Of a stretch of DNA of 64,000 nucleotides, positions 4,476 to 53,627 are shown piece after piece. How positions within the stretch are numbered: the stretch's first letter is position 1; every line of letters begins with the position of its first letter. Made by a program: the position numbers and the translations under genes. Below the pieces are notes generated by a model, which was not told where the DNA came from, did no database searches, and saw only the letters and a program-made list of their open reading frames with translations. Source of the stretch: Alternaria dauci (taxonomy: Eukaryota; Ascomycota; Dothideomycetes; Pleosporales; Pleosporaceae); NCBI RefSeq assembly GCF_042100115.1, contig NC_091277.1, forward strand, positions 806,001 through 870,000, in the 5' to 3' direction.

Positions 4476-6700
4476 TCAGCATAAGCATATGATCTCATTT
4501 GTGGTTTCTTCTTTCAACGCATTGTGTTCATGTTCGTTCGGAAAGGCACTCAGCTTCGCAATACCAACGCGTCGAAACGCCCGGTACCGTCCTTCCTTCC
4601 GCCCGTTTCCACTTGAAGTGAAGGAAATCGAGCCTTCGTATTTGAGTAACAGGCACAAGAGATCTCTATCCTCCTTCTTCTCCGTTCGCTCTCCGTATGC
4701 AGCTGGCATGCAATACATTTGCACGTCAGCACGAAAGATTTCCACGTCGGAGTCTGGAGCGTCGAGATATATGTTCGCATACTCTTTCGGTCGTTTGGGT
4801 GGAGGCTCAATCTTGAGGCGCCAGGCGAATGGTGACTGAAGCCACACTGGTAATTTGTACAATTCTATACGGCGGAGGTGGCGTGGTGCGAGAAGTAGTC
4901 GGCCTCCGGTGACCATCCCAAAGGGGTTCTCTGGGTCAGCTAGTTCGATGCTGTAGTCTACTGCCTTGAAGAGCAACTCTCCAGCGGTGTCTGATGACGA
5001 CCTGTAATCCGTGACATCATTGTAGGTGATGCCATGTGGACTGTCAATTGACGCCCATGAAAACGAAGGTCCACTGTCTGTGTGACGTTGGGCGGGGTTG
5101 TCGAAGACGCCGTTGCCTTTGTAAACATCATTGACGCTCCAGAGTAACTGGCTTTCGAGACAAGTACCCCATAATCCGGCAAAGTATTGCGGTCTGGGTT
5201 CCAGTTTGAACAAGGACTCCTGGAACAGCCTTGCGACGCCACTTAGAGCAATGAGCTTGTCCTCGAACTTGGTAAGCTGCATCCGAGAGTACGTCTCAAC
5301 GACCATTTTCCACAGTTCGTAGGTATACAAGTCTCGTAAGTGCAGATCTGGGTCCGGCCTGCCCTGCAATCGCATGTCTCGCAACGTAAGCCCAATGGCG
5401 GGCGTCAAAGGCTTTAGACGCCTCGTCTGTGAAACATTCAGCTGCTCATCAGAATGCTCCTCGCTACTTTGGAATTCACAGCACTCCCATGCAAGCTGAT
5501 TGTAGCCAAAGTGTATAACTCGTGGCGCTAGCAGGCGCTCCTGGAATACCCAGGCTCGTCGGTTGACAGGGGCTAGTTGCACCAGATTGTCCCAAGCGGC
5601 AGTTTCAATCAGCGTGCATCTTGTATAAGCATCGAGCTCTGCCATACGAGGATTTTTCGATACAAAAGAATCGTGATTGGGGTAGTAGACATTGACATTA
5701 TTTTCCCAGAGGTTCTTCGGACGCTGATCGAAGAACAGCCCCTCGTTTCCATTAGATGATGCGGTTGCGGAGATGTTCAGAAAACCCTTTTGATACACAG
5801 TCCCCATGTATCGGCTTTGCTCGAGCCAATCTTGCATTTGGTCCGCCGTATCCGAGAGGGGTTGTCGTGTACAAAGCGAGTCGATCCATATAAAACCAAC
5901 CTTGTCTAGGCGCGAGGCGAACATAACAGCATCTCGGAAAGTCTTTGGCAGCTCTTGCAGTCTGATGCCTTCTGTCTTGAAACGGTTCTCGGTTAGACAT
6001 GTCAGCCTCAAAGGCATCACGCCAGGCTTTGAGGTGCCCCAGCAATGGCTCAACGTAACATAGCGGTCGTCCTGGCGCTTTGATCTGACACGATGCCTTC
6101 TACTGTTACTTGTCCGTAGACCTGGACACTCTGCTGACTCCACCAAACGAATCCTTGCGTTGTCCGGGTCTTCTGGATTAACGCGCAGCTCGTGCAAGTC
6201 CAGCAGGCGACGAGGATACCATCTCTCGTTAGATATCTCCCAAGACTTTGCGCATTTGCATGTCGCCATCCACGTCCATGCCGTCTCTAGGACGTTATGT
6301 GACATTTCCCGGCGAGAAGCTACACGAGCTCTAGGGTCTGCACTTGTTTGTAAAGCCTCGTTTGAGCAGTCGGGGTGGTCATACCATTCTTCTTCAAGAA
6401 AAATTTACATTTGCGATCCTCTCTAATATCGAATCCCAAAACAAATTCGTATGCCTTCGAAGAATCTCGCATCTGAGCTTCCTTCCAAAGGGTGGCTCGA
6501 ATGGCCACAAATTGATCTCTCGAAAGGTCAATATCCTGGCGGAGCATTTGGGCCAAGCGTGCGCAGATTGGACAATGCATGCTGATCGATTGTCGAAGCG
6601 TCCGTGTGGATTTATGATGTTCAAAGACAAAGTCCATGGAGCCATTGAAGGTTAGTCCCGCCCGTCGGGTGAGCATGTCAGTGCACACGTCGCAAAGCAT
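4476..6700 (-). CDS. HET-domain (heterokaryon incompatibility) protein
   Basis: Exons 6700-6385 and 6337-4476 with a 47-nt intron (donor GTATGA, acceptor GTGCAG), giving 725 residues. An N-terminal cysteine-bearing segment (residues 1-105, CDVC...CPIC) precedes WYPRRLLDL and then the HET domain at about 198-300, with its three hallmark blocks: YVTLSHCWG, LPKTFRDAV...IWIDSLC, and MGTVYQKGFLNISATAS...EGLF. The block after IDSLC normally reads I-I-Q-D; here it is TRQPLSDTADQMQDW, a substitution plus a short insertion. The C-terminal 400 residues have the usual variable HET tail (WVFQERLLAPRVIHF, ALSGVARLF). HET proteins trigger cell death after fusion of unlike strains; the partner is unknown. 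Neighbours are also accessory-type genes. Confidence 0.9.
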
Positions 6701-48197: not shown

Positions 48198-51100
48198 CTA
48201 CAATGGTCGACCGCCAACGAAGTCGCTCCATGACCTAACCTCACTAGGAATACCTTCCTTCTTGGGCAGCTTCTCGCTCATACATTGGGCGAACAGAACG
48301 GCAGTCTACATTGACGTTAGCTTTTCGAATCACTGACGATAGAGATCATCGACTCACCTTGGGCTCCATGAACAGCGGTACACCAAAGTCGACTGCGTTC
48401 CTCCTCATTACGTAGTCCTCGTCAAACAGACCGCTCGCCCTGTACTTGGCCAGGTTGAAGCAGCCACGGATGTCGTTCTTCTCGAACACCTCACGGAGTT
48501 TCCTCTTGTCATCCTTGGGGAACTCGATGACTTCAACGCTGATGCCTTCAGTGTTCTTCTCCAGAAGCTCCTTTACGTCCTTGTTCGCAGCAAGGAATCT
48601 ATAGCCCAGTGCGTGCACGTACTTGGCGATTTGAATAAGAGAGTTGGAGTGAAGCGAACCAGGTGTGACATCACCACCGAAGAGAAGACCCTCGCCGGGC
48701 TGGGGAAGGCGGAAGTTCATCTGCGATTGTGCGGAAGCCCAGTAGGCCTCAACGAGGTCCTTACCGAAGCAGGCCATCTCACCAGTGGATGCCATCTCAA
48801 CGCCAAGGTAGGGGTCAGCACCTGCCAACCTAGTCCAGGAGAACTGGGGGACCTTGGTGGCGAGGTAGTTCCTCTCGACACTCATAAGGTCAGTTGGTTC
48901 GGGCACGTCGCGGCCAACGAGGGCCTTGGTGGCAACTTCAATGAAGTTGGTACCAAGGACCTTGCTGACGAAGGGGAAGGATCGAGAGGCACGTAGATTG
49001 CACTCAATGACCTTTAGGTTAGGCTCAGAGCCCTCAACCTCCTCCTTGATAATCTGCATGTTGAAGGGACCGGTGATGTTCCAAGCCTTAGCAACCTTGT
49101 CCGCGATCTCCTTTACGCGCTCTTGGATGCGCTTGTCGAGATTGACAGGGGGAAGCACCAAGGTCGCGTCTCCGGAATGAACACCAGCGTTCTCGACGTG
49201 CTCACTAACAGCGTGAACAAGAACGTTTCCGTTGGAAGCAACAGCGTCGCAGTCGATCTCTTGGGCGCCGTCGATGAACTTGGTGATGACGACTGGGTGG
49301 TCGGGCGAGACGTTTGAAGCAGCAAGAAGCTTCTCTTTCAGCTCGTCCTCACCACGGATGACAGTCATGGCAGCACCTGACAGAACATACGATGGACGGA
49401 CAAGAACCGGGTAGCCAACAGAGTTTACGAACTTCTTCGCATCCTCGTATGAGGTAAGCTCCTTCCAAGCGGGCTGGTCAACGCCAATTGAGTCCAAAAT
49501 GGAAGAGAATTTGTGACGGTCTTCGGCCTTGTCAATGTCATGTGGGTCCGTTCCCAAAATTTTAGCCTTTCCAGACTACAGTTGTGGAGATGCGAAGTTA
49601 GTGTATGTCTCATATGCATTTCGTACAGTCATAACTCACCTCCTGAAGCTTGAGAGCAATGTTCTGGGGAAGTTGACCACCGACAGAAACAACAACTCCG
49701 CTAGCAGTCTCCAACTCATAGATATCCATGACACGCTCGTAGCTGAGCTCCTCGAAGTACAGCTTGTCGGCAACGTCGAAGTCAGTCTGAACACGTGTTA
49801 GTCAAGATTCAATAGAGGCATTGATGTTGCTTACAGAGTATGTCTCGGGGTTGTAGTTGATCATGACAGTCTTCTTTCCGAGGGCGTTGAGGGAGCGGGT
49901 AGCGTTGACAGCACACCAATCAAATTCGACTGAGCTTCCGATCCGGTAGACACCGCTACCAAGTACGAGAATACCATGGTCGTCGAAGGTGACGTCGTGC
50001 GACGAGGCGTTGTAGGTGGTCTGAATGAAGAGATTAGTACTTGGGGTAAGTGACAACAAATACACCGTGTATTATGAGTGATAAAGAAAGAAAGTGGCCA
50101 AAAGGGTTCCAAAACGTGTGACTCGATGGTAGGGAATCACTCGAGCTCGGAGCTCGAGGATTCAGCGACCTTCTTCTTGTGGCGCTTCGATCGACAGTGG
50201 TCATTCCAGCTGCTCGACTTGTTGGTGTGGTACCGACAAGGCTCGCAATTGAAGCGGCAGTCATCAAAGGTACTGGCGACGTTGCGGAGGTGCTTGGTTG
50301 TGCCTTCGTGTTCCGTGAGATCGGACTGCGTCTGACAGACTGTGTTGCAAAGCTCGCAATGATATGTCTTCTTGATGACGTGCTTCGCTCGGTTGGCGTT
50401 CTCCCAGGCCCTGTGCTCTTTATGCTTCAGAGTTTTGCGTCGGCGATTCCGATCGTTCATTGCATCAAGGTATTCGCGATAGTTGAACTCCATCTGCTTG
50501 AAGTGGTACTTGGCGTTGTAGCCTTTCTTGCGCTCCTTCTTCTTGACAGCCAACTCTTCGAGTTGTTCAGGAGATAGAGAGAAGTCGCCAGCGATACCCT
50601 CGTGCAGGCAGCAGTGAGAGCACAACCCAGTATACTCGAGGGCGAGACGATCCCAGGGACAGATGTGTGCCATGCCGTAGTCCTTGCCGTTTGCAGTCCT
50701 CATAGCCCAGAAGATGTATGCGAAGGTAGCTTCCAGCAGGAGGAAGAGCAGACGTAATACAGGCTGTATTCCAGGCGGAGGAATGGACGACGTCCAACAC
50801 AGTAGGCCTCGAGACGCCACAGTGAAGCCTTCTTTCAAGCTCGCATTGTAGTATTTGGGAAGCTGGATTCCGCGATCGTAGCAATACCATCGAGCGATGA
50901 TACCGTAGTCTGCGCTGGTGGCGCTTCCGACATAGACGCGGTCTGCATGTTCAGTCTTGCGGAGAACGATGAGATAGACACCCCAGCCTTTGATGGCCAC
51001 ATTGGAGAGCGTCTGAAAGTACTGTACGGTCGGCGGCACCTCACTCTGCAGCACCTCTTCGAGGCCTTGAGCGAACTCAATGGGGTGAGATGAGAACACA

Positions 51101-53627
51101 TCCAAGAGCATCGTCTCACTCGATATGAACTCATCGAAGTAGAGGTTCTTCTGGTTCTCGGGTGTATCACTCAGGCACTGCCAGGCTGATGACAGGATGG
51201 AAGCCTCAACGTCGAATTCGCCAGTGGCGATGGCTGTGAGAGTGACCACCGGCATGCTTGCGGGAGTGACCGCCGGCATACTTGCTCAGAAGTGAGGTGA
51301 GACGTAAGGCACGATGCAGGTGAGTGAAGATCGAAGCCGTCGCAAGTGAGAGAAGACTGAAGCCGTCGCAAGTGCAGGTAAAAGAACGATGTGCGAAGAG
51401 CGAGGCAGTCGAGGATGCAGGTGAGGGAGTGAGGTACCAGAGCAGCTGGCAATACACTGTGAATCCAGCGAGGTAGGCGCCATGAGGCGTGCGAGGCAAG
51501 AGCCATGACAAATCGTTGTTGTGAGGAAGGTGCCATGACCAAACATGCCTGGGATGGAAGGAGCAACCAACAACACCAAATGGGCGGCGTCCGAAGTCGA
51601 TACTGGTGGTTGTTGCAAAGAAAAAATCACGAGGAAAAAAAGGAAACAGATCAGGTACTTACATAAAGATAGTTCGTGTTGGCAGGAAATCTTCAGAACA
51701 AGTCAGTATACGTCTCAAATGAAGTTGGACGAGGGCAATGCTTACTCCGCAGCGAGAGTATCGATTCTTTTCACGAACGGTTTGATTCCGAAGCTTTTCC
51801 TGCGTGCGCGAACCTCGTCTTCAGTGCTGTTAACGGCCTTGGCAATCTGCTTGTCAGAGAAACCGAGCTTCTTGGCCTTGAGAATAATCTCTTTCTTGAG
51901 GCCGAACAAGCTGCCTATCTCCTCAAGCTCGTGAGTGAGGTCGACGATGTTCTGGAGCTTGTACAAGAACCACTTGTCAATCTTAGTCAAATCATGCACC
52001 ATGTCGACGGTGTAGCCTTCGTGGAACAGCGCCTGACCAACGGCAAGCCATCGTCGATCGGTAGGGTTCTTGAGTTCCTCGTCAAGGTTCTCGCCGTACT
52101 TCTCGCCCTGGAAACCAAGGAACTTGGGGTCAACTTGACGGCAAGCCTTCTGGAATGACTCCTCGAATGTGCGACCGATAGCCATGACCTCACCAACTGA
52201 CTTCATGGAACTTCCAATGTCGCGCTTGACGTTCTGGAACTTGCTAAGATCCCATCGAGGCATCTTGGTGACGACGTAATCCAAAGAGGGCTCAAAGTTT
52301 GCGGTGGTGGTCTTAGTAACGGCGTTGGGCAGTTCAGGGAGGGTGTGTCCGAGACCGATCTTTGCTGCAGTGTACGCCAGAGGGTATCCAGTCGCCTTGG
52401 ATGCCAATGCAGATGAACGAGAGAGACGGGCGTTGACTTCGATGACCCTGTAGTCGAGACCATCAGGCTGTAGACAGTATTGCACATTGCACTCGCCAAC
52501 GACTCCCAAATGCCGGACGATCTTGATGGACGCAGACCGGAGCATGTGGTATTCCTCGTCGCTGAATGTCTGACTTGGCGAGACAACGATACTGTCACCA
52601 GTATGTACACCAAGGGGGTCAAAGTTCTCCATGTTGCAGACTGTGATGCAGTTGTCGCTGGCATCACGGACGACCTCGTACTCGGCCTCCTTCCAGCCCT
52701 TGAGAGACTTCTCAACCAAGATTTGAGGTGAAAGCGTGAGCGAACGAGCTGACAGATTCTTCAGCTCCTCTGGGTTGTTTGCGAAACCTGAACCGAGACC
52801 GCCGAGCGCGTACGCGGCGCGAACGATGATAGGATATCCGACCTTCTCGGCCGCGTCCAGTGCCTCATCGACAGTGGAAACGGCAATCGACTTGGCAATG
52901 GGAATGTTGATCTCGTCGAGAGCGCGTGCGAAGAGATCACGGTCCTCGCTGGTCTTCAGAGTCTGAACGCTAGTTCCGAGCACCTTGACGCCATACTTCT
53001 CGAAAATGCCCTTGGCATCCATTTGTACACCCAAGTTTAGCGCAGTCTGTCCACCGAAGCTGAGGAAGATGCCATCTGGCCTCTCCTTCTGGATGACATA
53101 TTCGGCGTATTCGGGTGTTACAGGCAGGTAGTAAATTTCGTCGGCGAGCACGTGGGACGTTTGGATGGTAGCAATGTTGGGGTTGAGAAGGACAGACTTG
53201 ACGCCAGCTTCCTTGAGGGCCTTGAGTGCTTGTGAACCTGAGGGCTGGTTAGCATGGCCCAAGTTTCCGTGTTGCACGAGTGCGTACCTGAGTAGTCAAA
53301 CTCTCCGGCTTGACCAATGCTGAGTCCACCACTACCGATAACTAGGACTTTCTTGACATCAACCAGATCCTGCGCGCCGGAAATGACGCCGCTCTTTAGA
53401 TATGCCTCTGCATTAGGCGCGGTCTGTGTCTTGTTAAATGTGGACGCGACCTTTGTGAATGCCCGCAGCTGTCGGAGGGCGGCAGGTGACTCAGTGCTGG
53501 AGCGGAGCGAAGTCAACGGCCGAGCGCTTCGGGTAGTGAAACTTCGAGAGTATGTAGAAGGTGCAATGGAGCGAGTAGGACCTGTAAGGCAAGGTACGCG
53601 ACGTGCTAGACGCCCGCAGAGAGCCAT
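48198..53627 (-). CDS. CPA2: Carbamoyl-phosphate synthase, arginine-specific, large subunit (mitochondrial)
   Basis: Seven exons, 53627-53288, 53237-51746, 51690-51663, 50020-49835, 49786-49640, 49575-48358 and 48305-48198, give 1,172 residues. It makes carbamoyl phosphate from ammonia, bicarbonate and 2 ATP for arginine synthesis. An Arg/Ser-rich presequence ([21 protein letters not shown]) suggests the mitochondrial matrix. [23 protein letters not shown] opens the first ATP-grasp half; [33 protein letters not shown] and the second-half block [21 protein letters not shown]...[17 protein letters not shown] are intact, and the C-terminus [17 protein letters not shown]...SDFVGGRPL is the family ending. 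Introns are 50, 55, 1642, 48, 64 and 52 nt. The third contains another ORF on the same strand. Confidence 0.96.
50137..51279 (-). CDS. GIY-YIG nuclease-like protein with two C2H2 zinc fingers, nested in a CPA2 intron
   Basis: An intact 380-residue ORF inside the 1,642-nt third intron of CPA2 (50021-51662), same strand. GIY-YIG landmarks are G100-V-Y, Y116-V-G-S, R130 after a short helix, and a candidate metal-binding glutamate at 183 in [18 protein letters not shown] Cys/His cluster (GLCSHCCLH, 218-226) and a basic, Lys/Arg-rich helix (245-300) precede two U1-type fingers: C308-x2-C-x12-H-x5-H330 and C345-x2-C-x12-H-x5-H367. The pattern nuclease plus DNA-binding fingers fits a sequence-specific endonuclease. 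The start is ATG 51279; a 24-bp duplication places a second in-frame ATG at 51255. No internal stop or intron is needed. Expression would need its own promoter or a retained-intron transcript. Activity is inferred. Confidence 0.85.
   Translation of the reverse strand: MPAVTPASMPVVTLTAIATGEFDVEASILSSAWQCLSDTPENQKNLYFDEFISSETMLLDVFSSHPIEFAQGLEEVLQSEVPPTVQYFQTLSNVAIKGWGVYLIVLRKTEHADRVYVGSATSADYGIIARWYCYDRGIQLPKYYNASLKEGFTVASRGLLCWTSSIPPPGIQPVLRLLFLLLEATFAYIFWAMRTANGKDYGMAHICPWDRLALEYTGLCSHCCLHEGIAGDFSLSPEQLEELAVKKKERKKGYNAKYHFKQMEFNYREYLDAMNDRNRRRKTLKHKEHRAWENANRAKHVIKKTYHCELCNTVCQTQSDLTEHEGTTKHLRNVASTFDDCRFNCEPCRYHTNKSSSWNDHCRSKRHKKKVAESSSSELE
51238..51285. repeat. 24-bp direct duplication containing the nested gene's start codon
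   Basis: Units 51238-51261 and 51262-51285 share agtgacc(a/g)ccggcat(g/a)cttgc. Each carries an in-frame ATG for the GIY-YIG ORF on the minus strand. Confidence 0.85.
51320..51371. repeat. 26-bp direct duplication upstream of the nested ORF
   Basis: Units 51320-51345 and 51346-51371 share gtgag(t/a)gaaga and gaagccgtcgcaa, with two or three differences between copies. It lies within the CPA2 intron, 40 bp 5' of the nested start. Confidence 0.85.

Follow-up and report, generated by a model that had tools for sequence, protein, structure and literature searches.

The window analysed here, a 64,000-nt stretch of contig NC_091277.1 of Alternaria dauci (positions 806,001 to 870,000), contains the arginine biosynthesis gene CPA2, and this gene is split by a long intron in which an open reading frame (ORF) for a GIY-YIG-like protein is nested. 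Related sequences were found at further places of the same genome. We consider it likely that these elements form a family of mobile spliceosomal introns, each with its own GIY-YIG-type nuclease gene, which home into conserved genes and carry an altered version of their target. A first-pass annotation, made from the sequence of the window, had proposed a homing-like selfish element in CPA2. This proposal is supported by seven further family places, by an insertion column shared between ATP2, VMA1 and ATP1, and by empty CPA2 sites in 117 of 118 relatives with a recognised junction (among the best 120 of 3,769 matches). Further support is provided by the ATP2 site: three other named species also carry an element there, and these elements are strongly divergent.

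The nested intron of CPA2 and its reading frame

The nested intron extends from position 51662 to 50021 on the minus strand, exactly where the first-pass annotation had placed a 1,642-nt gap in CPA2 (50021..51662). The in-frame junction FPANTNYLY/TTYNASSHD was borne out as well: the intron lies in phase 0 and the spliced product is uninterrupted. Database matches (P0080, P0103) name this product as CPA2, in agreement with the proposed host. The splice signals are canonical, with a GTAAGT donor at 51662, a branch-like TACTAAT at ~50039-50033 and a CAG acceptor ending at 50021. Judged by these sites and by the reading frame, the intron would be removed by splicing. Its length is indeed unusual, as had been stated: in partial models of the six host genes described below, 17 of 18 other introns measure 48-64 nt and one 325 nt. 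No Rfam family, group I or group II introns included, was found in 49900-51800 (E ≤ 1) or, at the gathering cut-off, in the six host loci, and there are no inverted repeats of at least 14 nt within 49980-51720.

The nested ORF (50137..51279, minus strand) encodes 380 amino acids plus stop, and its AlphaFold model has a mean pLDDT of 86.8. It had been described as filling nearly all of the intron. It is intact and lies on the host strand as claimed, but accounts for only ~70% of the intron. The rest consists of a leader of 383 nt between donor and ORF start (51280..51662, minus strand, 66% C+T), which is a candidate promoter of its own, and a trailer of 116 nt (50021..50136, minus strand) with the branch-like motif and the acceptor. 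Within the leader (51316-51410) a 26-nt unit is present in three imperfect copies.

The GIY-YIG-like domain (50611..50988, minus strand; model residues 98-223) contains Y102, Y116-V-G118, R130, Y134 and E183. In a family alignment of 17 rows Y102, G118, R130, Y134 and E183 are invariant, and Y116 is conserved in at least 90%. The GIY-YIG motif register is retained in a profile alignment, and I-TevI was the first match in fold comparisons with predicted models of both family clades. Hence, both features by which the GIY-YIG superfamily is recognised were found, a core fold matching a known structure and conserved catalytic residues (GIY...YIG, R and E). The Pfam model PF01541 did not match the nested ORF (hmmscan), and none of the eight family places is among the 12 PF01541 matches of the genome; PF01541 is one detector of the superfamily and not its definition. 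The assignment was therefore made on fold comparison and motif register, without a Pfam match. The nuclease landmarks noticed at first pass are real, family-wide and part of an I-TevI-like fold. Lack of a GIY-YIG fold on profile search had been named as an argument against the reading; here Pfam was silent, whereas fold comparison was positive. The nested protein is thus predicted to be a GIY-YIG-type nuclease, with presumed catalytic activity.

Two zinc fingers had also been claimed, and Pfam detects two fingers of the C2H2 type in the C-terminal part, zf-met (PF12874; 50290..50364, minus strand) and zf-C2H2_jaz (PF12171; 50176..50256, minus strand). Weak alignments of the finger regions were obtained with RNA-binding and spliceosomal finger folds. 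A reverse transcriptase domain was not detected by Pfam in the window ORF or in 9 further proteins scanned, and a Penelope-type or other GIY-YIG retroelement was rejected on this ground. A database search with the nested ORF gave 40 homologues (E ≤ 0.001), among them metagenomic sequences and proteins of named species, and the genome holds seven more places of the family; the ORF is therefore more than a chance reading frame.

To compare CPA2 between relatives, as the first-pass annotation had suggested, the spliced product of 335 amino acids was used as query. Among the best 120 of 3,769 matches a junction pattern recognises 118, and 117 of these have no intron at the site. A long intron in every relative had been named as evidence against mobility; intron-less versions were found instead. 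NCBI protein names are attached to three of the 118, which may represent spliced annotation. For the others intron-blind gene calling is assumed, because the remaining relative, P0174 (218 of 224 residues identical; 144 member sequences), suggests so. Here unrelated sequence begins at the exact junction, starts with V-S as if translated from a GT donor and stays open for 47 codons. Apparently the CPA2 site of P0174 is thus also interrupted by an intron, one that exceeds the usual 50-60 nt, and the intron at this site looks recent but shared with a close relative.

The nested intron is preceded by a 28-nt microexon (51663..51690, minus strand), which ends in ...FPANTNYLY and is joined to the upstream exon in all 118 relatives. 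Directly upstream lies a short intron of 55 nt (51691..51745, minus strand), an addition to the first-pass description. This short intron is missing in the same 118 relatives, and the junction pattern by definition excludes it in all of them.

A family of eight places at conserved genes

The genome searched (34.9 Mb in 10 contigs, including the window) was queried with four family proteins, all of which return the same eight places; additional weak matches from two of the four queries cover the tail only. The places are CPA2, an SSB-type Hsp70 gene, ATP2, VMA1, TEF1, ATP1, an alpha-tubulin gene and, with a fragment only, the region upstream of another cytosolic Hsp70 gene. A search for the same ORF in other introns, proposed at first pass, has thus led to seven further places at highly conserved genes. 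Host and element share the strand in all eight copies. Six copies reside in coding introns of 1,612-1,875 nt, namely those in CPA2 (window), SSB-type Hsp70 (L018), ATP2 (L019), VMA1 (L020), TEF1 (L021) and ATP1 (L022). In the alpha-tubulin gene (L024) the copy is found at the 3' end, between two versions of the terminal exon. On the minus strand of L024 these differing terminal exons are located 53 and ~2,526 nt past the last shared exon and flank the nested ORF. The eighth copy is a decayed fragment (L023, ~4600-5120, plus strand) ~900 nt before the ATG of an SSA-type cytosolic Hsp70. Pairwise identity among the copies is ~20-49%, with one copy per site.

All six spliced host products are uninterrupted. 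The five other than CPA2 align across the junction with structures of yeast or fungal proteins, end to end and with little or no gap: ATP1 with ATP synthase alpha (1-311 of the query to 71-381 of the chain), VMA1 with V-ATPase subunit A (1-384 to 79-462), SSB with SSB1 (1-359 to 256-614), TEF1 with EF-1alpha (1-376 to 4-380) and ATP2 with ATP synthase beta (1-363 to 23-385). Alpha-tubulin and the Hsp70 of L023 were identified as well.

In ATP2, VMA1 and ATP1 the nested introns split the same glycine codon in the same phase and the same column of a protein alignment (GxxxxE(Y/W)FRD, split at the G). The aligned sites read VALT[G]LTVAEYFRD (ATP2), SIYT[G]VVISEYFRD (VMA1) and APFS[G]CSMGEWFRD (ATP1). 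These genes are ancient paralogues, and for this reason a shared ancestral intron is implausible. The plain reading of the matching sites would be independent, sequence-guided insertion.

The closest pair seen within the genome is formed by the ATP2- and VMA1-site proteins (47-49% identity). When the VMA1-site protein was used for a database search (38 matches), gene models in which the ORF is fused to ATP2 were found in Alternaria alternata, Elsinoe australis and Ascochyta clinopodiicola. In the first two the ORF stands directly before LT(V/L)AEYFRDEEGQDV of ATP2, in the third before EGQDVLLFIDN; all three fusions lie at the insertion point or shortly behind it. As these models illustrate, the elements can be mistaken for parts of host genes. 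The three species belong to the Pleosporales and Myriangiales, and family members are also present in Cadophora (Leotiomycetes) and Flavoplaca (Lecanoromycetes). The ATP2-site protein of A. dauci is 60% identical to its A. alternata counterpart. In a quick tree of 78 rows the four known ATP2-site elements are spread over more than one clade (AU p 3e-72), and the VMA1 element shares a starred group with the element from Ascochyta ATP2. The A. alternata ATP2 element and a relative in Alternaria gaisen (P0062, P0057) share ~62% identity over their whole length, but 42% in the tail. The two species are near kin, and these values are far below those expected for such kinship.

Splicing beside some elements is peculiar. 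The TEF1 element sits in a stwintron (L021, ~6091-6042, minus strand), the external donor GTATGT being split after its first G by a short internal intron. In the SSB-type Hsp70 gene, microexons of 14, 20 and 8 nt and four introns, including the nested one, fall within ~42 coding nt. Short introns without a canonical site (acceptor TTG; donor TTACGT; no GT donor) lie beside the element in ATP1, ATP2 and alpha-tubulin, and the conserved reading frames require their removal.

Rewritten host flanks

Codon adaptation was calculated with weights taken from codons more than 150 nt away in the same six genes. Steep drops were found beside the nested introns, in the 90 nt upstream in CPA2, in the 90 nt downstream in ATP2 and on both sides in SSB. 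In CPA2 this flank comprises the last 90 coding nt before the nested intron (51663..51807, minus strand, a span which includes the 55-nt intron). Further drops are present in VMA1 (30 nt downstream, weaker to 90), ATP1 (~20 nt upstream) and TEF1 (upstream, weak). The collapse is mostly confined to one flank, and the CPA2 exon downstream of the nested intron (TTYNASSHD...; 49835..50020, minus strand) has normal codon usage in its first 60 nt. Across the six host genes the minimum flank z ranges from -2.9 to -4.5. In five of them codon adaptation at the flank is below that of every far site, and in TEF1 5% of far sites are as low. Summed over genes, the drop is reached by none of 20,000 random site sets. 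Eight control introns gave z values of -2.7 to +1.1, none reaching the drop at nested introns; VMA1 and SSB have no control introns. ATP1 shows a second dip 90-120 nt downstream. In the last 90 nt before the alpha-tubulin element z is -2.7 to -3.6, a value that at least one far window of this gene equals.

The amino acids of these flanks are largely preserved, and therefore the flank DNA has been rewritten under protein constraint. Candidate causes are destruction of the nuclease target by selection, co-conversion with a foreign allele, or repair scars. Bearing on co-conversion, the final 20 of the 224 residues hold three of the six differences between CPA2 and P0174 (Fisher p 0.01, for a stretch chosen post hoc). 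In CPA2, ATP2 and ATP1 the rewritten side also holds additional short introns, and SSB has them on both sides; in our model none is near the VMA1 intron. The microexons beside the elements measure 28, 17, 20, 14, 20 and 8 nt. The best interpretation of the rewritten flank is a protected target that arose by co-conversion and/or selection and is no longer cut, with immunity as its presumed function.

Proposed mechanism, rival explanations and known systems

DNA cleavage, homing, expression from the leader and an immunity role of the rewriting are steps that we infer, and they can be arranged as follows. The leader would drive expression of the ORF. The C2H2 fingers, likely the DNA-binding tail of the nuclease, would together with the helical tail bind a short, strongly conserved coding segment in the intron-less allele of an essential gene, and the GIY-YIG core would cut the allele at this segment. 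With the intron-bearing allele as repair template, the whole intron and its flank would then be copied in, and the spliceosome would excise the intron from the mRNA, leaving the host protein unharmed. The tail is less conserved than the N-terminal part and core in 12 of 15 hand-picked pairs, in two of them by less than 2 points. The CPA2 element is nearer to P0003 in its tail (64%, compared to 45% for P0002) and nearer to P0002 in its core (84% vs 71%), a mismatch expected if targets change by tail exchange.

Tentatively, this scheme may be extended to a natural home-and-rescue drive, which we hold to be quite possible without counting it as probable. Self-spreading spliceosomal introns of filamentous ascomycetes (Dothideomycetes, Leotiomycetes, Lecanoromycetes) would encode a GIY-YIG/zinc-finger nuclease that cuts conserved codons in essential nuclear genes, and the inserted allele, largely synonymously rewritten and shredded by introns, would be uncuttable. 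Jumps from one ATPase paralogue to the homologous site of another and exchange of finger tails might make new targets, and new introns would be seeded.

Some observations weigh against homing introns that move between sites. The SSB and ATP2 copies are apparently cut in the finger region, and splice sites near the ATP1, ATP2 and alpha-tubulin elements are non-canonical. ATP2 could be an old site, since insertion sites are known for a minority of the tree rows. Part of the distribution may also be due to vertical descent, because P0174 apparently carries an intron at the same CPA2 position.

The elements might instead be mobile without homing, spreading like introners or transposons or by an RNA template into highly expressed, open genes, with the nuclease as only a part of the machinery. 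Introner-like elements are reported to multiply in fungi (PMC11889510), all host genes are probably strongly expressed, and several elements are flanked by clustered extra short introns. We nevertheless regard such spread as unlikely: sequence targeting is implied by an insertion column and phase that three paralogous genes have in common, the CPA2 intron is free of the inverted repeats searched for, and the low identity of the copies, single per site, shows that they are not recent multiplications. The ORFs could also be ordinary host genes that happen to be nested in introns and encode a domesticated family of nucleases or zinc-finger proteins serving the cell. This would account for ORFs that stay open across long divergence, for an ATP2 site occupied in A. 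dauci and three named species of two orders, and for the apparent intron of the near relative P0174. A cellular role is quite unlikely given eight of eight copies at ultra-conserved genes on the same strand, three of them at a homologous site, a CPA2-site intron absent from nearly all recognised relatives, the divergence between the A. alternata and A. gaisen elements, and two apparently truncated copies besides the fragment.

Both the weak likeness of the finger regions to RNA-binding and spliceosomal folds and the strand shared with the host in all eight cases would fit an intron-resident regulator, whose protein acts on host transcript or DNA (autoregulation or defence) and is kept for its benefit. 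This is very improbable, as the host functions are unrelated to each other and the GIY-YIG core, the homologous-site insertions and the rewritten flanks would be left unexplained. The few non-canonical adjoining splice sites could point to an artefact of assembly or annotation, which is highly improbable for eight loci with six in-frame spliced hosts, homologues in metagenomes and named species, and ATP2 fusions in other assemblies.

The homing introns favored here have counterparts among known systems. As in the homing endonuclease genes of I-TevI-type group I introns, the ORF of a site-specific nuclease with GIY-YIG fold stands in an intervening sequence that occupies a conserved site and is removed at the RNA level. 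Unlike group I homing introns, removal is spliceosomal (GT...branch...AG), no ribozyme core is found by Rfam searches and a nuclear protein-coding gene serves as host; according to a 2013 review, nuclear group I introns are known exclusively from rRNA genes (PMC3679873). Because of the lacking ribozyme core, group I and group II intron identity was rejected.

The yeast VMA1 intein is an example of an intein with homing endonuclease, and the nuclease of LAGLIDADG inteins belongs to a family different from GIY-YIG. Like such inteins, the elements would be selfish nuclease genes, inserted where essential nuclear genes, those of ATPases among them, are strictly conserved, and a preference of inteins for conserved sites has been described (PMC2814812). 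Unlike inteins, they are removed from RNA and not from protein, and the ORF lies within an intron between leader and trailer. Intein identity was rejected, as stops, leader and trailer separate the ORF from the exons, which splice GT-AG. VMA1 could be matched with the 1,071-aa chain 9cop_A up to query residue 213, where the intein is probably located; the nested intron, at residue 259, occupies a different site. The elements would work like homing introns, yet belong neither to group I or group II introns nor to inteins.

Introner-like elements are known in Dothideomycetes, and introners form many near-identical intron copies, often with terminal repeats. Multiplication of spliceosomal introns as mobile units would be a common trait with the family described here. 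Unlike introners, its members encode a nuclease, use homologous sites in paralogues and are divergent, with one copy per site. Introner identity was rejected because of the eight divergent copies and the lack of inverted repeats in 49980-51720. The TEF1 copy resembles stwintrons, the spliceosomal twin introns of fungi, in that its external donor is interrupted by an internal intron; nuclease ORFs are not known from stwintrons.

In engineered rescue drives a nuclease is directed against an essential gene and combined with a recoded, uncuttable copy of the target. Unlike engineered home-and-rescue and cleave-and-rescue drives (PMC7968924, PMC7951863), the presumed drive here would be natural, would use GIY-YIG instead of Cas9 and would reside inside a spliceosomal intron. 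If true, the rewritten flanks would represent nature's arrival at the engineered solution. Nuclease-bearing mobile introns are so far known as self-splicing introns and, at the protein level, inteins, and a literature search returned no report of a nuclease-bearing spliceosomal intron. An element that uses the spliceosome would thus add a type of mobile intron to nuclear protein-coding genes and offer a direct, testable route to intron gain at defined sites.

Eleven of the 12 genomic PF01541 matches are located at C3:3345871-3425765, several with in-frame TGA. The mitochondrial genome, or a large copy of it, appears to be joined near the end of contig C3.
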